From positions 1-9,823 of the forward strand of contig JAJYOH010000186.1 in NCBI GenBank assembly GCA_021796315.1: a stretch of DNA of 9,823 nt, given 5' to 3'. The notes below the pieces were generated by a model. The model was not told the DNA's origin and searched no databases. It saw only the letters and a list, made by a program, of their open reading frames with translations. The translations under genes and the position numbers were made by a program. How positions within the stretch are numbered: position 1 is the stretch's first letter; each line of letters starts with the position of its first letter. Source of the DNA: Chloroflexota bacterium. GTDB lineage: Bacteria > Chloroflexota > Anaerolineae > Anaerolineales > Villigracilaceae. Below, piece after piece: positions 1-7,962 of this stretch.

Positions 1-50
1 GCTTTTCACCGACATTGGTTGATTCACTTATTAGCTGAATATGTGTGTCG

Positions 51-84
51 TAATAGTAGTAGGGCTTGTGGATAATGTGGATAA
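51..84 (+). promoter_or_regulatory. DnaA-trio element plus tandem DnaA boxes (origin unwinding module)
   Basis: The order is TAA TAG TAG TAG (51-62), a short GC-containing spacer (63-66), then two directly abutting perfect boxes TGTGGATAA at 67-75 and 76-84. This matches the basal unwinding layout known from Bacillus: double-stranded boxes load DnaA, and the filament then spreads onto one strand through repeated TAG trinucleotides. The trios lie on the side that the TGTGGATAA orientation predicts. The moderately AT-rich bases 20-50 would be the first to melt. The motifs are seen directly; the function is inferred. Confidence 0.75.
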
Positions 85-167
85 AAAGATTCTTGCACAT
101 GGGATGGATGAAAAGAACCGGTACCCCCACATTTTGGATTTAGCGATTCTTTTCGGACTTTGCGCGT

Positions 168-176
168 TGTGGACAA
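168..176 (-). promoter_or_regulatory. Weak DnaA box
   Basis: TGTGGACAA on the plus strand differs from the perfect box by one base. It has the same orientation as the tandem pair at 67-84 and lies about 85 bp away, between the two main clusters. Sites of this type are usually lower-affinity. Confidence 0.5.
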
Positions 177-220
177 TCCTTGAATAGAATCCGGGCTGAA
201 TTCGGGTTCAAAGCTCGTTT

Positions 221-261
221 CCATATTTTGGTCAAATCCATATGTTAGCCCCAAAATATGG
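221..261. repeat. 11-bp perfect inverted repeat inside oriC
   Basis: CCATATTTTGG at 221-231 is the exact reverse complement of CCAAAATATGG at 251-261, with 19 bp between arms. A third copy with one mismatch, CCACATTTTGG, lies at 127-137 in the same orientation as the first. Three copies within 135 bp, each a CC-(A/T-rich)-GG core, suggest a protein-binding site such as an origin regulator, or a cruciform. No known regulator is recognised. Confidence 0.6.
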
Positions 262-330
262 GGGTTGGTTTTGGGTGGTTTTTAGTTGATTTCTCGAACA
301 TTTGGGCATACTGTCCACAGGAGAGGGGCT

Positions 331-360
331 TTATCCACAGTTTCTGCCGTGTTATCCACA
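331..360 (+). promoter_or_regulatory. Two perfect DnaA boxes, opposite orientation to the left cluster
   Basis: TTATCCACA occurs at 331-339 and 352-360, start to start 21 bp apart, which is two helical turns and so places both on one face of the DNA. A degenerate box (CTGTCCACA) lies 21 bp upstream of the first (start 311 versus start 332 when aligned on the conserved CCACA core), suggesting a phased array of three. They lie about 50 bp from the end of the neighbouring nucleotidyltransferase gene. Confidence 0.75.
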
Positions 361-389
361 GATTGGACTTAATCGGGCGGAGTGGTCTA

Positions 390-2208: not shown

Positions 2209-2970
2209 TCATCCAATCGCTTTCTTCAAGCTTTTTGCAAGTTTTCCGAAATGCGCTGTATAGCGCATTTCGTCCTTTCTGGGACGCGGCAAATCCACCT
2301 TCAAATCCAATTTGATACTGCCGGGGCGTTGGGTCAGGACGAGCACGCGGTCAGCCAGAAATAACGCTTCCTCGATTGAATGTGTAACCATGATGACGGT
2401 TTTCTGGCGCGCCTGCCAGATGCGGGATAATTCCGTCCACATGCGTTCGCGGGTAAGCGCATCGAGCGAACCAAATGGCTCGTCGAGGAATAGCAAGTCC
2501 GGGTCGTGGATGAGGGCGCGCGCAATAGCGACGCGTTGCGCCATGCCGCCGGAAAGGTCGCGCGGCCAATTGTCTTCAAAGCCCTGCAGCCCGATCAATT
2601 CGATTAAGTCCTGTGCTTGCATGCGCGCATCCGCCGCACCTGCGCCTTGCAGTTCGAGCGGCAGCATCATGTTCTGGATGACCGTCCGCCAGGGCATGAG
2701 GTTGGACTGTTGAAAGACCATGCCAATGCGCGGATTTTGTCCGCCTGCGAAAGTATAGTCTCCGTGTGTCGGCGCGATCAAGCCGGCCAGGATTCTCAAC
2801 AAGGTGCTCTTGCCTGAACCCGATGGGCCCAGCACAGCCACGAACTCGCGCGCCTGGATGTGGAATGAAACATCATCCAGCACGTACAGTCCGCCGTTGC
2901 CGTCAGGGAAGGTAACGCTTAATTTATTGGCGACCAGGATCGGGTCCAGAGAAGATGCGGGCATAATCAA
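2209..2970 (-). CDS. ABC transporter ATP-binding protein (nitrate/sulfonate/taurine-type; probable riboflavin importer)
   Basis: This cytoplasmic ATPase should power the importer encoded just upstream. All motifs are intact: Walker A GPSGSGKST (48-56), Q-loop around FQQ (86-88), signature LSGGMAQR (139-146), Walker B LLFLDEP (159-165), D-loop SLD (168-170) and switch His197. The 253-aa length is typical of the TauB/SsuB/ThiZ-like subfamily. The start is uncertain: the frame opens with TTG at 2970, there is an ATG two codons later (2964), and neither has a visible Shine-Dalgarno site. The 77-nt gap to the upstream binding-protein gene is mostly filled by a palindromic repeat. Membership of the operon rests on order, strand and the shared terminator. 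Confidence 0.92.
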   Translation of the reverse strand: MIMPASSLDPILVANKLSVTFPDGNGGLYVLDDVSFHIQAREFVAVLGPSGSGKSTLLRILAGLIAPTHGDYTFAGGQNPRIGMVFQQSNLMPWRTVIQNMMLPLELQGAGAADARMQAQDLIELIGLQGFEDNWPRDLSGGMAQRVAIARALIHDPDLLFLDEPFGSLDALTRERMWTELSRIWQARQKTVIMVTHSIEEALFLADRVLVLTQRPGSIKLDLKVDLPRPRKDEMRYTAHFGKLAKSLKKAIG

Positions 2971-2977
2971 ATTTTGT

Positions 2978-3031
2978 TGGTCGAGTAGGCGGTGAGTTTC
3001 GATATGGCCTTCGGCCTACTCAACCACCGCC
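2978..3031. repeat. REP-like intergenic palindromic element
   Basis: TGGTCGAGTAGGC (2978-2990) pairs with GCCTACTCAACCA (3014-3026), 13 positions with one G-T wobble or mismatch. A competing stem pairs GGCGGTG (2988-2994) with CACCGCC (3025-3031), and an inner GGCC-TTC-GGCC hairpin lies at 3006-3016. The core resembles a palindrome type that recurs between genes in actinobacterial and other genomes (GGTTGAGTAG...CGAAAC form). It sits between the binding-protein stop and the ATPase start, where it could act as an mRNA-stabilising or attenuating hairpin. Recall of the family is from memory and was not searched. Confidence 0.7.
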
Positions 3032-3047
3032 GTATTGAGACCAAAAA

Positions 3048-4022
3048 TCACGGAATAAAATCGTTCGTGAACATTTTGCTCACATCCAGTGGTTTGGTGA
3101 TCGAACCCATCTTGAGCAAAGTGTCATTCATGTTTTGCCAGGCCTGCGGGTCGGACATGCCGAGGCGGTCAGTCTTCCATTCATCGATCGAGCGCGCCAG
3201 AATTTCCTTTTGCACTTTTTGATCGGCGCCCGCAAGTGTGTCCACATATTTTGTGCTGATCGTGTACGCTTCATCGGGGTTGGCGATGGTATCAGACAGT
3301 CCATGCAAAAATGCTTTGACGAAGCCGCGCACAAGATTTGGATTTTCAGTGATCGTTTTTTCGTTGGTGATGATTCCGTTCGAGGCGAGCTTTACGTAAT
3401 CGGCCACTTGCAATTCGTTGATGGCGTAGCCCTGCGCCTTCAATTGCACCGGCTCGTTTGCGGAATAAACCGACGCGGCTTGTTCGCGATCCGCGGCCAG
3501 CGCCGCAACTTGATTGAAGCCAATCGAATCAAGCGTCACATCTTTTTCGGCCAACCCCGCAGAATAAAGCAAGGCATCGAGACCGATATAATTTGCGCCG
3601 AAGAGTCCGGGCAGGCCGATCTTCTTGCCTTTCAAATCTGCAGGCGTTTGAATGTTTTGCGAAGTCTTTGAAACCACCGCGACAGGATATTTCTGATACC
3701 ACGCCGCAACATAAACAATCGGCAATCCCTGCGCACGCGCCAATGGGACCTGTTCGCCGGAAACCACCGCGAATGGGAGATTGTTCGCGCCGACCAACGC
3801 CACGCCATCCGTTTCGAATTTGTAATCGAAAGTGATTTCAATGCCCGCATCTTTGAAATAACCTTTTTCAACTGCGACATAAAACGGCGCAAACTGGACG
3901 TTGGGAATATAACCCATCGGCAGGCTGATCTTGGTCAACGCGCCACTCGCGGACTTGGGTGTGCTGCAGGCCGAAAGGCTGAGCGCCAGACCAAGCATGA
4001 TCAAAACTATTTTCTTTAACAT
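3048..4022 (-). CDS. ribY: Solute-binding lipoprotein, NMT1/THI5-like (probable riboflavin-binding RibY)
   Basis: This 324-aa protein is an extracytoplasmic, lipid-anchored substrate-binding component. It starts with a lipoprotein signal peptide: KK at 3-4, a hydrophobic core, and lipobox LSAC with Cys19 as the lipidated residue. Residues 33-58 carry the hallmark of THI5/NMT1-type binding proteins (MGYIPN at 36-41, then FAPFYVAVEKGYF). Relatives bind the thiamine precursor HMP, sulfonates, nitrate or riboflavin. Here the operon starts with an FMN riboswitch rather than a TPP riboswitch, which favours riboflavin, as for RibY of Chloroflexus. The ATG has AGGAG 6 nt upstream. The permease gene lies 37 nt upstream and the ATPase downstream. 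The family is certain; the ligand is inferred from regulation. Confidence 0.87.
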   Translation of the reverse strand: MLKKIVLIMLGLALSLSACSTPKSASGALTKISLPMGYIPNVQFAPFYVAVEKGYFKDAGIEITFDYKFETDGVALVGANNLPFAVVSGEQVPLARAQGLPIVYVAAWYQKYPVAVVSKTSQNIQTPADLKGKKIGLPGLFGANYIGLDALLYSAGLAEKDVTLDSIGFNQVAALAADREQAASVYSANEPVQLKAQGYAINELQVADYVKLASNGIITNEKTITENPNLVRGFVKAFLHGLSDTIANPDEAYTISTKYVDTLAGADQKVQKEILARSIDEWKTDRLGMSDPQAWQNMNDTLLKMGSITKPLDVSKMFTNDFIP

Positions 4023-4059
4023 AATGTTCTCCTAAAAATTATTTTATTAACAGGCCTAT

Positions 4060-4857
4060 TCACTGCTGAATATGTTCCTGCCATTTCAAAAGCCGATGCT
4101 CGAACCAGGTAACCAATCCGTAAAGCAGTAGCGCCAGCGCCACCAGCGTAAAGACCGCCACAAAAACCATCGGAGTGTCAAAGGTGCCGCGACCAATATT
4201 GATCAACACGCCCAGCCCCGTATCCGCGCCGACCAATTCGCCGACCACCGCTCCAATAACGGACAGCGTCGCGCCGATGCGAAGCCCGCCAAAAAAAATC
4301 GGGAGCGCGGCGGGAATTTCGAGATAGCGGAGAATTTGTCCGCGCGTGGCATGAAGCGAGCGCATCAGATCGTAATAGGCGGGCGGCACCGCGCGGATTC
4401 CGACCACGGTGTTGACCAGCACCGGAAAGAAGACGATCAATCCGCAGATCAAAATCTTCGAGAAGATTCCCGGTCCAAACCACAGCACGAGCAACGGCGC
4501 GATTGCAACCAGAGGCACGGCCTGGCTTGCGACAAGATACGGTGAAAGGATTTGTTCCAACATGCGCGATTTTGCCAGCATATAACCAAGGATTGTTGCA
4601 AAGAGCACACCAGAAAAAAGTCCAAGCGAAACTTCGAGCAGAGTCGCGCCGGTGTGCCGTGCCAACTCGCCATTGAGCAGGGCGCGCAGGAACCGCGTCC
4701 ATACGTCGGCGGGCGAGGGCAGGATGAAAGCCGGGAGTCCCCCGTAACGCGCGATCAACCACCACACAAAGATGCCCGCGGCCAGGGAAATAAATCCCAG
4801 CCAGCGGCGGTGATGTTTGGCAATGTGCGGAAGATGCTTTAGAGAGTTGATGTCCAT
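4060..4857 (-). CDS. ribX: ABC transporter permease (BPD-type; probable riboflavin importer RibX)
   Basis: This integral membrane subunit of 265 aa has about six hydrophobic segments (roughly 19-37, 72-95, 108-127, 132-154, 187-212 and 229-252). The cytoplasmic EAA-like coupling loop lies at 160-186 (YYDLMRSLHATRGQ, ending in IPAALP) and contacts the ATPase. The FILPSPADVW segment near residue 44 is typical of SsuC/TauC/ThiX-like permeases. It is the first gene after the FMN riboswitch and its terminator hairpin. The ATG at 4857 has no good Shine-Dalgarno site (only TTGGA directly before it). Role and partners follow from family and gene order; riboflavin as substrate is inferred from the riboswitch. 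Confidence 0.88.
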   Translation of the reverse strand: MDINSLKHLPHIAKHHRRWLGFISLAAGIFVWWLIARYGGLPAFILPSPADVWTRFLRALLNGELARHTGATLLEVSLGLFSGVLFATILGYMLAKSRMLEQILSPYLVASQAVPLVAIAPLLVLWFGPGIFSKILICGLIVFFPVLVNTVVGIRAVPPAYYDLMRSLHATRGQILRYLEIPAALPIFFGGLRIGATLSVIGAVVGELVGADTGLGVLINIGRGTFDTPMVFVAVFTLVALALLLYGLVTWFEHRLLKWQEHIQQ

Positions 4858-4900
4858 TCCAATTTATGTTTTAGCTCTCAGCAGGCTGGCAGTTTGAGCA

Positions 4901-4935
4901 TTAAAAACGCCTCGCAGAGAAAAACCTGCGGGGCG
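4901..4935 (-). terminator. Terminator hairpin of the FMN riboswitch expression platform
   Basis: On the minus strand CGCCCCGCAG (4935-4926) pairs with CTGCGAGGCG (4917-4908), ten positions with one mismatch, followed at once by TTTTTAA (4907-4901). It lies between the aptamer and the permease start. This is the classic layout for transcription attenuation: FMN binding would favour the terminator and turn the operon off. Confidence 0.8.
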
Positions 4936-4975
4936 CGAAAACCGACCTCGGCTGAGTCCGATCCGAAAGAAAAGT

Positions 4976-5000
4976 CCCGAAAACAAGAATCGTTTTCGGG
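4976..5000 (-). promoter_or_regulatory. Second hairpin in the riboswitch expression platform
   Basis: CCCGAAAAC (4976-4984) and GTTTTCGGG (4992-5000) form a perfect 9-bp stem with a 7-base loop. It lies between the FMN aptamer and the terminator. On the minus strand a pyrimidine-rich ACTTTTCTTTC follows, so it might be a pause or weak terminator, or half of an antiterminator. Its partner strand was not worked out. Confidence 0.5.
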
Positions 5001-5039
5001 GCATCCAAATCGAATCAGACCCGCGCGGGCCTGTCGTCA

Positions 5040-5182
5040 CCTTCTTCTATCCAGACTATACTGTCGGCATTGGATTTCCACCAATTCATGCGCTTGCGCG
5101 CTCGCGGGCTTTACCGCCGATCGGGAATTCACTTGCACCGCACTGCGTTTGGCGCAGTGCAGATGTCACCCTGCCCCGAAGG
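5040..5182 (-). ncRNA. FMN riboswitch (RFN element)
   Basis: The minus strand carries nearly all conserved RFN blocks in order: CTTCGGGGCAGGGTG (start of P1/P2), CCGATCGGCGGT, AAGCCCGCGAGC, a TTGGTGGAAATCCAA P5 hairpin, GCCGACAGT, and AGTCTGGATAGAAGAAGG. Closing helix P1 is CCTTC (5182-5178) with GAAGG (5044-5040). FMN binding to such aptamers represses riboflavin synthesis or transport genes. The next gene is a transporter permease 183 nt downstream, with a terminator between. Oddity: the normally tiny P2 loop is enlarged by about 37 nt containing an 8-bp hairpin (5140-5147/5153-5160). Confidence 0.95.
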
Positions 5183-5201
5183 TTAATATTTAGTTAGCGC
5201 G

Positions 5202-5247: not shown

Positions 5248-7962
5248 TTATTTCAACTGCGTTTTGATTTTTTTCGCCGTCTCTTTATAACCAGCGAGTT
5301 TTTCTCTTTCCTTCGCAACGACTTGCGCCGGAGCTTTGTTCGCAAAATCGCTGCCGAGCAATTTTTCAAGCCGCTCGATATGAGATTGAGTCTCAGCCAG
5401 TTCTTTTTCAATGCGTGCCTTCTCATTGGCCAAATCCACCATGTCTGAAAGCGGGAGATAAATTTCCACAGACCCGATCACAAGTGCAACGCTGTCCTTT
5501 GGCTTCGACGAAAGCGAAGTTTGAATCGCGAATTGGGATTCATCCAAACCTGCCAGAGATGCTATGACGGATTTTTGCGATTCCAACAGTGCGGTCTGTT
5601 GGCCCGCGGCAAATGTGGCCGCGATGCGTTTCGATGGTGCGACCGATTTTTCCGCGCGCAGATTACGAATGTCGCGCACGACCTCCTGGATCAGCGTGAA
5701 GTCTGCCACCTTTGCATCTTCCCAGCCTTCGAGATCGCGCGGCTCCGGCCATTTTGCTACGATCAAGGCTTCAGGCCAGTCTGCGGCGATATTCGTGATT
5801 CGGGATTGGAGAATCGAATCTCGGAGATGTCCCCAGATTTCTTCGGTGACAAAGGGTGTAAATGGATGAAGGAGACGTAGTGATATATCCAATACACGAG
5901 CAAGTGTTTCGATTGTCGAATATCGAGTATCGTCTTTCGCCATCTGTCCTTTTGCGATTTCCACGTACCAGTCTGCAAAATCGGACCAGAGGAACTCGTA
6001 GATCTGACGACCGGCCTCGCCGTATTGGAAGGTCTGGAAGAGTCGTTCCACATCGCGGACCAACTTTTGCATTTTGGCCCAGATCCATGAATCAGCCAGT
6101 GTCCAGTGATTAGTGTTCAATGACCGGTCATTAGTACCTGACACCTGAGACGTGACACTTGACACTGCACTTATCACAAACCTTCCCGCGTTCCATATTT
6201 TATTTGCAAAGTTGCGGTTGGCTTCCACTTTCTTCACGGACAGATTCATATCGTTGCCGGGTGTCGCTCCGACCAGCAAAGTGAAGCGCAACGCGTCTGT
6301 GCCGAGTTCATCCATGACAATTAATGGATCAATCACGTGGGCATAGGTCTTGGACATCTTGCGTCCATGCTCATCGCGAATCAGTCCATGCAGGTACACG
6401 GTACGGAACGGCACCTGACCTGTGAACTCCAGTCCATCCATAATCATGCGTGCCACCCAGAAGAACAGGATGTCATAGCCTGTTTCCAGCACAGATGTTG
6501 GATAAAAATATTTGTAATCGGGAGTCTCATCAGGCCAGCCTAACGTTGAGAACGGCCACAAACCGGACGAGAACCATGTGTCGAGCACGTCTTCATCCTG
6601 GTGAATATCTTTCGAACCGCAAGTGCCACACTGGGTCGGGTCTGCACGACCAGTGGTCATGTGCCCATCCGGGCAATACCAAACCGGGATGCGATGTCCC
6701 CACCAAAGCTGGCGGCTGATGCACCAATCCTTGATGTTCTCGAGCCAGTTGTAATAAACCTTTTCAAAGCGTTCAGGCACGATCTTGATGTCATCATCTT
6801 TGACCGCGGCCAAAGCGGCCTCGGCCAGCGGCTCGATCTTAACGAACCACTGAGTCGAAATCATCGGCTCGACGATTTCGCCGCCGCGTTGTGAGCGCGG
6901 GATGGTGGTCATATATTTCTCTTCCTTGATGACCAGACCAGCGGACTTCATATCGGCCCACAAATTTTTGCGACAATCGAATCGATCCTGACCTTGATAC
7001 GGGCCGCCGTTTTCGTTCATTTTCGCGGCCTGATCCAGCACCGATATGATCGGCAAATTGTGACGCTGCGCGATGGCATAATCGTTCGGGTCATGTCCGG
7101 GCGTTATCTTCAATGCGCCCGTGCCAAATTCCATGCTGACATATTCATCTGCGATGACGGGAATCTCGCGTCCGATGATAGGCACGATGGCAGTCTTGCC
7201 GATGAATTTTTTGTAACGGGCATCGTCGGGGTGAACGGCCACAGCCGTATCGCCGAGAATTGTTTCAGGTCGAATCGTTGCAACGGGGATATAACCTTCC
7301 GAAGGTTCGGCCTTGAGCATGTATTTGAAGTAATACAACGTGGCTTCTTCTTCGCTGTATTCCACTTCGAGATCTGAGACGGCCGTCTTCAGCCCCGGCG
7401 ACCAGTTGATTAGACGCGGACCGCGATAGATGAGTCCTTTTTCGTAGAGGCGCACAAAAGCCTCTCGGACCGAGCGACTCAGTCCATCGTCCAAAGTGAA
7501 GCGTTCGCGATCCCAATCGCAGGACGCGCCCAAACGTCGGATCTGCTCGGTGATGATGCCGCCGTACTTATGCTTCCAATCCCAGGTGCGCTTGACGAAT
7601 TCGTCGCGGCCAAGTTCCTCACGCGTCACCTCCTCTTTTTTCAAAAGGTCGCGTTCCACCATGAGTTGTGTGGCGATGCCCGCATGGTCGGAGCCGGGAA
7701 CCCACAGCGTGGAGAAGCCCTTCATGCGGTGATAGCGGATCATCAGATCTTCGACGCTGACGAACATGGCGTGGCCGAGATGCAGTTCGCCGGTCACGTT
7801 CGGCGGCGGGATGGAAATAACGAACGGCTTGACGTTCGGATCGAAGCCCGGTTTATTCGGGTCGTTGTGCGGCTTGAAGTATCCGCCTTTTTCCCACATC
7901 GCGTAGATGCGGGACTCGGTATCTCTGAAATCGTAGGCTTTAGGTAATTCGTGTCTTGTCAT
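5248..7962 (-). CDS. valS: Valine--tRNA ligase (ValRS), 904 aa
   Basis: This cytoplasmic class Ia synthetase attaches valine to tRNA-Val. Visible in order: HLGH at 61-64 (HIGH motif) inside PPPNVTGELHLGH; SDHAGIATQ (91-99), typical of ValRS; the editing domain with TIRPETILGD (229-238) and GTGALKITPGHDPNDY (280-295); a Cys cluster (C430, C445, C448) suggesting a zinc site; DVLDTWFSSGLWP (458-470); KMSKT at 535-539; the anticodon-binding helical domain; and a C-terminal coiled-coil arm from about residue 825. The length is normal. The ATG has AAGGAG 5-6 nt upstream, overlapping the stop of the hydrolase gene 9 nt away, so they form one operon under a Val-specific T-box. Oddities are KMSKTYAH where KMSKS-x-GN is usual, and three repeat-like segments in loops. 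Confidence 0.98.
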   Translation of the reverse strand: MTRHELPKAYDFRDTESRIYAMWEKGGYFKPHNDPNKPGFDPNVKPFVISIPPPNVTGELHLGHAMFVSVEDLMIRYHRMKGFSTLWVPGSDHAGIATQLMVERDLLKKEEVTREELGRDEFVKRTWDWKHKYGGIITEQIRRLGASCDWDRERFTLDDGLSRSVREAFVRLYEKGLIYRGPRLINWSPGLKTAVSDLEVEYSEEEATLYYFKYMLKAEPSEGYIPVATIRPETILGDTAVAVHPDDARYKKFIGKTAIVPIIGREIPVIADEYVSMEFGTGALKITPGHDPNDYAIAQRHNLPIISVLDQAAKMNENGGPYQGQDRFDCRKNLWADMKSAGLVIKEEKYMTTIPRSQRGGEIVEPMISTQWFVKIEPLAEAALAAVKDDDIKIVPERFEKVYYNWLENIKDWCISRQLWWGHRIPVWYCPDGHMTTGRADPTQCGTCGSKDIHQDEDVLDTWFSSGLWPFSTLGWPDETPDYKYFYPTSVLETGYDILFFWVARMIMDGLEFTGQVPFRTVYLHGLIRDEHGRKMSKTYAHVIDPLIVMDELGTDALRFTLLVGATPGNDMNLSVKKVEANRNFANKIWNAGRFVISAVSSVTSQVSGTNDRSLNTNHWTLADSWIWAKMQKLVRDVERLFQTFQYGEAGRQIYEFLWSDFADWYVEIAKGQMAKDDTRYSTIETLARVLDISLRLLHPFTPFVTEEIWGHLRDSILQSRITNIAADWPEALIVAKWPEPRDLEGWEDAKVADFTLIQEVVRDIRNLRAEKSVAPSKRIAATFAAGQQTALLESQKSVIASLAGLDESQFAIQTSLSSKPKDSVALVIGSVEIYLPLSDMVDLANEKARIEKELAETQSHIERLEKLLGSDFANKAPAQVVAKEREKLAGYKETAKKIKTQLK
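6103..6174. repeat. In-frame degenerate short-repeat segment within valS
   Basis: This stretch encodes ValRS residues about 597-620 (Ser/Thr/Asn-rich) between conserved GRFVI and LADSW. It is built of GTGTCA/GACAC- and GTGATTAGTG-type units and includes a perfect 14-bp palindrome AATGACCGGTCATT (6119-6132). Such units look like dispersed intergenic repeats rather than ordinary coding DNA. The position is a variable loop in the family, so an in-frame insertion would be tolerated. Confidence 0.5.

Follow-up and report, generated by a model that had tools for sequence, protein, structure and literature searches.

Phased NrdR-type boxes accompany the DnaA boxes of a chromosomal replication origin in Anaerolineales-type Chloroflexota

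Introduction

How cells adjust the initiation of replication to their supply of nucleotides has long been asked. Several regulators have sites among the DnaA boxes of oriC, namely CtrA in Caulobacter, Spo0A in Bacillus, HP1021 in Helicobacter, and AdpA in Streptomyces. These are response regulators or developmental factors, whereas NrdR reads ATP and dATP directly.

The papers cited here are represented by their available excerpts. According to these, NrdR binds DNA when it is loaded with dATP plus ATP or ADP (PMC12176259) and represses ribonucleotide reductase (RNR) genes, its box has the consensus acaCwAtATaTwGtg (PMC4009431), and the nrdR gene frequently lies in clusters with others, dnaA among them (PMC4898720). 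The NrdR targets tested in the excerpted open-access papers are RNR genes and topA, the latter being activated by NrdR from a single box in Pseudomonas aeruginosa (PMC4409342). In Caulobacter, raised dNTPs delay S phase (PMC12186491). DNA unwinding has its own described module, the basal unwinding system (BUS) of Bacillus subtilis oriC, in which the trios are 3'-GAT-5', the GC region measures about 4 bp, and the commonest spacer is 13 bp (PMC8287927). Searches of open-access papers showed no NrdR boxes in an origin, and the papers found for Chloroflexota origins name none of the kind reported here in their titles or abstract starts.

We analyzed a 9,823-nucleotide stretch of Chloroflexota DNA (the window), following up an earlier note in which a replication origin with an unwinding module had been proposed from the bases themselves.

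Results and Discussion

A chromosomal origin with phased DnaA boxes and an unwinding module

Bases 1-365 of the window are a chromosomal oriC, and as an origin this is of an ordinary kind. It carries four perfect TTATCCACA DnaA boxes in two opposed clusters, as the earlier note had described, compared with a mean of 0.006 and a largest count of 1 in 20,000 first-order Markov resamplings; such clustering beyond chance is one criterion for an oriC. On the right (331-360), boxes R1 (352-360) and R2 (331-339) lie on the (+) strand with a phase of 21 bp, followed by the weaker box R3 (CTGTCCACA, 311-319, (+)) at 20 bp from R2. On the left, two perfect boxes on the (-) strand (67-75 and 76-84) abut with zero spacing, also as described before. 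Another weaker box, TTGTCCACA, lies mid-origin at 168-176 (-), where a 7-sequence alignment has a TNNTNCACA-like stretch. Both weaker boxes were absent from the note, and both fit the DnaA array. The 21-bp phase that it had pointed out recurs as the pair TGTGGATAA-N12-TGTGGATAA in 93 of 120 family genomes (reversed control 0), these places including a second site class without trios.

The tandem boxes are followed on the (-) strand by a GC-rich spacer, AGCC (63-66, read 66-63), and by four DnaA-trios, CTA CTA CTA TTA (51-62, read 62-51), which equal 3'-GAT GAT GAT AAT-5'. The TAG trios with a short GC spacer that had been noted at 51-66 are these same trios read on the opposite strand. The sequence elements by which a BUS is recognized are present, namely one or more DnaA boxes, a spacer of at most 16 bp, and three or more trios centered on A. 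As in the B. subtilis BUS, there are two DnaA boxes, a GC-rich spacer of about 4 bp, and 3'-GAT-5' trios, and the distal box is separated from the trios by 13 bp, the commonest spacer in the excerpted BUS paper (PMC8287927). Unlike the B. subtilis BUS, the module here has an array of three phased boxes, together with NrdR-type boxes, about 280 bp from it, and dnaA is unlinked in the Chloroflexota relatives. CTACTA-type trios are also present in relatives. Of 120 genomes searched with a strict pattern of the module, 57 have a match (58 places; control 0), and the other 63 have no exact one.

To find relatives, the gene adjoining the origin (408-1436, (-)), for which there was no Pfam match, was used as an anchor. 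Its protein has 1673 homologues out of 7998 candidates scored, and the few organism-named ones among the 120 matches listed are Anaerolineales or Chloroflexota. A scan of a genome collection with this gene gave 63 loci, all from Chloroflexi, Anaerolineae, or subgroups of these. The origin belongs to Anaerolineales-type Chloroflexota, in keeping with the uncultured Chloroflexota host that the note had supposed. The DnaA layout of the window recurs next to the homologue in six of these loci (L001-L006), where R1 and R3 are both kept, and the remaining 57 mostly lack a perfect box pair nearby.

A replication gene near the origin is a common, though not required, trait of oriC, and here it is provided by dnaN. 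In L001, L002, L003, and L006, dnaN starts 2.9-3.1 kb past the homologue of the 408-1436 gene, as identified by three DNA polymerase beta-clamp domains (Pfam); there was no dnaN match in the 1.2 kb of downstream DNA examined in L004 or the 3.2 kb in L005. The module and dnaN are about 3-50 kb apart in 11/11 genomes that have both on one contig (G001, G003, G008, G017-G020, G030, G055, G069, and G072). The earlier note had proposed a search for replication genes beside the origin, and in relatives this held for dnaN and failed for dnaA, which is single-copy in 20/20 and 12/12 genomes (overlapping sets) and lies 0.4-1.9 Mb from the origin in the five with both placed on one contig (G017, G019, G055, G069 if circular, and G072).

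The GC skew minimum proposed as a further check was likewise sought in relatives, with a mixed outcome. In G002:C3, the cumulative minimum at 35,818 is less than 0.5 kb from the boxes at 36,227-36,256 (160 kb of 167,725 covered). The sampled skew of G069, taken as 24 stretches of 20 kb on a 3.97 Mb contig with the site at 3.905 Mb, is consistent with an origin there: it is negative in 10/10 stretches at 1.8-3.6 Mb and positive in 5/5 at 0-0.8 Mb, with mixed values at 1.0-1.6 Mb and a positive stretch at 3.80 Mb. There was no clear switch in 36 sampled stretches of G055, and the minimum in G001 lies 10 kb from the site, near a contig end. The layout that six relatives share beside the homologous gene, the nearby dnaN, the skew minimum in one relative, and the matches to the strict module pattern bear out the oriC with a BUS-type module that had been proposed. 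It is scarcely credible that the locus is instead a plasmid origin or a DnaA-titrating cluster; the family does have a second conserved DnaA-box cluster without trios, and the sampled G055 skew fits this alternative, but the trio module, the nearby dnaN, the G002 minimum, the sampled switch in G069, and chromosomal-type genes such as valS in the window all argue against it.

This second class of cluster lacks both the trios and the palindrome M1 described below, and it is possibly a DnaA-titrating site. Of 17 held-out sites of this class, 16 lie beside RmlD-type (rfbD-like) genes, and 13 of these 16 have a NeuB-type gene as well (Pfam). The class is found as well in L124, L126, L127, and L128, with rfbD-like and neuB-like genes, and in L110 with rfbD only; one example of the class lies near 360,014 in G055:C1. 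We rejected the idea of two origins in genomes with two phased box pairs because the second class has neither the trio module nor M1. In G047, the two matches are at two contig ends and are probably one locus.

NrdR-type palindromes among the DnaA boxes

There is a second type of site in the origin that the earlier note overlooked, consisting of 16-bp palindromes near CCCCCATATATGGGGG. The palindrome was found by comparing 34 origins, where it has a set place after R3. Its columns C4, A6, A8, T9, and G13 are invariant in 34/34 and T11 is kept in 30/34, and these most conserved columns are the core of the NrdR box given in the Introduction. In the window, M1 (249-264; CCCCCATATTTTGGGG on the (-) strand) is the best match to an NrdR-box matrix, with a score of 14.7. 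The other sites all have the six-position core complete: M0 (389-404), outside the DnaA array, with a matrix score of 6.8; M3 (124-139), 55 bp before the unwinding module, with 5.4; and M2 (218-233), a weaker site 31 bp from M1, with only -0.7. The first 410 bases hold four occurrences of the core, and only two more are found in the remaining 9,413. By matrix score M1 alone stands out in the window, and coding matches at 6700 and 5606 exceed M0.

Like the NrdR operators of RNR genes in the excerpted papers (PMC4009431, PMC12176259), these sites are 16-bp palindromes with the same core, and they may likewise form pairs about three helical turns apart. Unlike those operators, they lie in a replication origin, interleaved with DnaA boxes, and their outer arms are GC-rich instead of aca/tgt (PMC4009431, PMC12176259).

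NrdR is encoded in 20/20 of the relatives tested, each with an RNR match within 2 kb of nrdR. The G001 protein has a Zn-ribbon and an ATP-cone and matches solved NrdR chains over 144/146 residues. Tandem boxes 30-31 bp apart were found upstream of nrdR in 19/20 genomes (G018 and G072 being near-twins); a motif shared with the nrdR upstream regions of the same lineage is one mark of an NrdR box. We built the matrix from these 38 boxes only, leaving out L328 for its poor upstream match, and its consensus is nevertheless that of M1.

With this matrix, 73/73 origins have a site scoring at least 10 in the 115 bp that follow the DnaA array (resampled 1.4%), and 65/73 have one scoring at least 14 (resampled 0.07%). 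The 73 comprise 34 discovery and 39 held-out origins. Left out of the discovery set were L110, L124, L126, L127, and L128, which have no module, and L059 and L131-L133, which either yielded no module, duplicate other loci, or are short. The exact phased pair is missing from L049, L050, and L055. For the held-out set, 64 further phased-pair places were listed by hand and 60 of them used, and 39 passed a module score of at least 20 and a distance of at least 200. The 21 that were dropped are 17 of the second class (L246 having neither gene), L225 and L240 at contig ends, L258 (module score 19, M1 present), and L222 (an M1-like site, no module). Across all 60, M1 is present in 27/27 at a module score of at least 24 and in 14/31 below it, and 2/60 were too short. 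A site scoring at least 14 was also present in 20/20 further origins chosen by the unwinding module alone, without the exact phased pair (shuffled 0.2%). These are 20 of the 58 strict-module places; most of the others had already been used, and G099:C29, G018 as the near-twin of G072, and a second G048 place were omitted.

The genomes are kin, and the counts are not independent. Among 600 sampled pairs of spacer sequences, the median identity is 0.525, compared with 0.486 when shuffled, and the spacers form 63 groups at 70%. As M1 is present in 63/63 groups, recent common descent alone is insufficient to explain the motif. M2 scores at least 4 in 17/73 origins (resampled 1.8%). Phylum-wide, a strict combined pattern was found in 8/400 genomes, six of them already in the family sample; this is an undercount, since G002 and G006, which have such origins, were missed. 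The sequence case for NrdR-type boxes in the origin is strong. Several observations nevertheless count against the explanation proposed below, in which NrdR binds these boxes within an origin complex: M2 is weak and only M1 is prominent in the window; in 1.52 Mb of four relatives, ten matches score at least 14, four in origins and six elsewhere; and the strict palindrome CCCCAKATMTGGGG, which has a match in 83/120 genomes (131 places in all, reversed control 0), was beside neither dnaA nor phased boxes in 7 of 30 loci fetched, 20 being just beside dnaA and 3 at phased boxes. The runs of T described below and the skews of G055 and G001 weigh in the same direction. Unusually many strict palindromes occur in G072 and G018 (9 places each) and in G074 (6).

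Sites upstream of dnaA

Upstream of dnaA, 27/29 regions have a site scoring at least 12 (shuffled 1.7%), placed between -306 and -356 relative to the alignment-inferred start; of the two exceptions, L069 is truncated at a contig end and L192 reaches only 10.7. There was no such site upstream of dnaN (0/20). Here dnaA has one clear box, and RNR promoters have pairs. In this respect dnaA resembles P. aeruginosa topA, an NrdR target beyond the RNR genes with a single box; topA is activated, and the excerpted paper describes no link to an origin (PMC4409342). A promoter motif, TGnTAnAAT, is present upstream of nrdR in 19/20 and of dnaA in 29/29. The nrdR boxes lie just after this motif, as for a repressor, and the dnaA box lies well upstream of it. 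In the dnaA upstream regions of L191, L190, and L080, a DnaA box (TGTGGATAA) sits immediately after the NrdR-type one. Another element, TGTTCKA, is common to 15/20 nrdR and 14/29 dnaA upstream regions and 35/73 origins (shuffled about 5%); we guess that it is perhaps a LexA-type half site.

From these sites, we infer that NrdR binds both oriC and the upstream region of dnaA. Another DNA-binding protein with a similar palindrome might read them instead, given that they are tied to NrdR by sequence only and that dnaA has a single box where RNR promoters have pairs. We consider this very improbable, as a matrix drawn solely from the upstream regions of nrdR has the consensus of M1, and as the 30-31 bp spacing recurs in the origins.

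Helical register with the DnaA array

M1 starts 74-76 bp from R1 in 15 origins, 85-86 bp in 35, 95-97 bp in 22, and 125 bp in one, so that in 72/73 its place is one of three that differ by about one helical turn. M0 lies at about -44, -54, or -65 in 62/72 origins with a site scoring at least 6. At 10.5 bp, the steps of M1 and M0 give R values of 0.96 and 0.94, compared with a random maximum of 0.37 for M1 in 2000 sets, in statistics that ignore the tree. Of 76 sites scoring at least 6 in the second half of the origin, 63 precede the module by 24-28 or 55-58 bp, two distances that differ by 30 bp, and 28 of the 76 have the larger one. The best M1-M2 spacing is 30-31 in 52/73 origins, M2 itself being weak.

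These positions bear on a simpler explanation, that the oriC is ordinary and the palindromes are terminators of the neighboring gene or other hairpins that are not protein sites. The GC-rich arms with an A/T center would suit a terminator, T4 occurs within 12 nt after M1 in 26/73 origins, and in L280 and L283 strict palindromes are followed by T runs behind a tRNA-like sequence (by eye). However, the T run is absent in 47/73, M1 is present in 20/73 origins without a neighbor-gene homologue in the examined flank, the box recurs as a tandem pair upstream of nrdR and again upstream of dnaA, and the positions step by one helical turn. We therefore regard this explanation as very unlikely, and NrdR-type protein sites as the preferred reading of the palindromes.

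A possible role for NrdR at the origin

It is probable, as far as the bases tell, that this is a chromosomal oriC with DnaA sites and NrdR-bound palindromes in the register of the DnaA array, with NrdR as a partner in the origin complex. In such a complex, DnaA would load on the phased boxes R1-R3 and the tandem pair and extend onto the trios, and the DNA would open towards base 1, an activity predicted from the BUS literature for the observed layout. NrdR would bind M0-M3, whose places are observed, in a fixed helical register with the array, as well as the single box upstream of dnaA. At oriC it may serve as an architectural or licensing partner of DnaA.

A role as a complex partner is most likely, rather than that of an ordinary promoter repressor, because the motif of the nrdR and dnaA promoters was not found in these origins: TGnTAnAAT, the sole promoter form searched, is in 0/73, a slight shortfall given that chance would yield about 4 (shuffled 5%). 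It is conceivable, if unlikely, that NrdR binds only to regulate transcription from a promoter within or close to the origin, with no direct effect on initiation. The NrdR targets in the excerpted open-access papers are indeed promoters, but the absence of that motif argues against this, as do boxes that keep the register of the DnaA array despite differing neighbors.

The sign of an effect through the origin complex is a guess. With high dATP, NrdR would repress the RNR gene and might help both the origin complex and the expression of dnaA, following a logic in which a cell with enough building blocks stops making them and starts using them. We guess a positive sign because of the topA precedent (PMC4409342, as excerpted). 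An inhibitory gate at the origin is nearly as likely, and it is rather what the delayed S phase of Caulobacter suggests (PMC12186491, as excerpted). We lean only slightly towards the broader view that in this group of Chloroflexota NrdR is a built-in part of initiation, placed at oriC in register with DnaA and upstream of dnaA, through which the balance of ATP and dATP would directly license or block initiation together with RNR expression.

The presence of NrdR-type sites in an origin suggests that these bacteria may couple replication initiation to how many nucleotides they have available, and conserved, helically phased boxes make such a direct link testable by standard assays. It is intriguing to consider the origin NrdR-type box as a motif to seek elsewhere. 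The origin also provides a usable definition of oriC across a large group with mostly uncultured members, which could serve, for instance, in estimating growth rates from read coverage.

Neighboring genes

Eight open reading frames of the window were taken for genes, all on the (-) strand from 408 on and pointing at the origin, and six of these have a Pfam match. The second is a deoxynucleoside kinase gene (1445-2161, (-); Pfam dNK, 2e-39), and such a gene adjoins the homologue of the 408-1436 gene in 63/63 loci, a pairing that persists where no origin is nearby. Further along, an FMN riboswitch (5035-5187, (-)) precedes genes for an ABC permease, an NMT1-type binding protein, and an ATPase; this region (2209-5187) likely encodes a flavin-type transporter.
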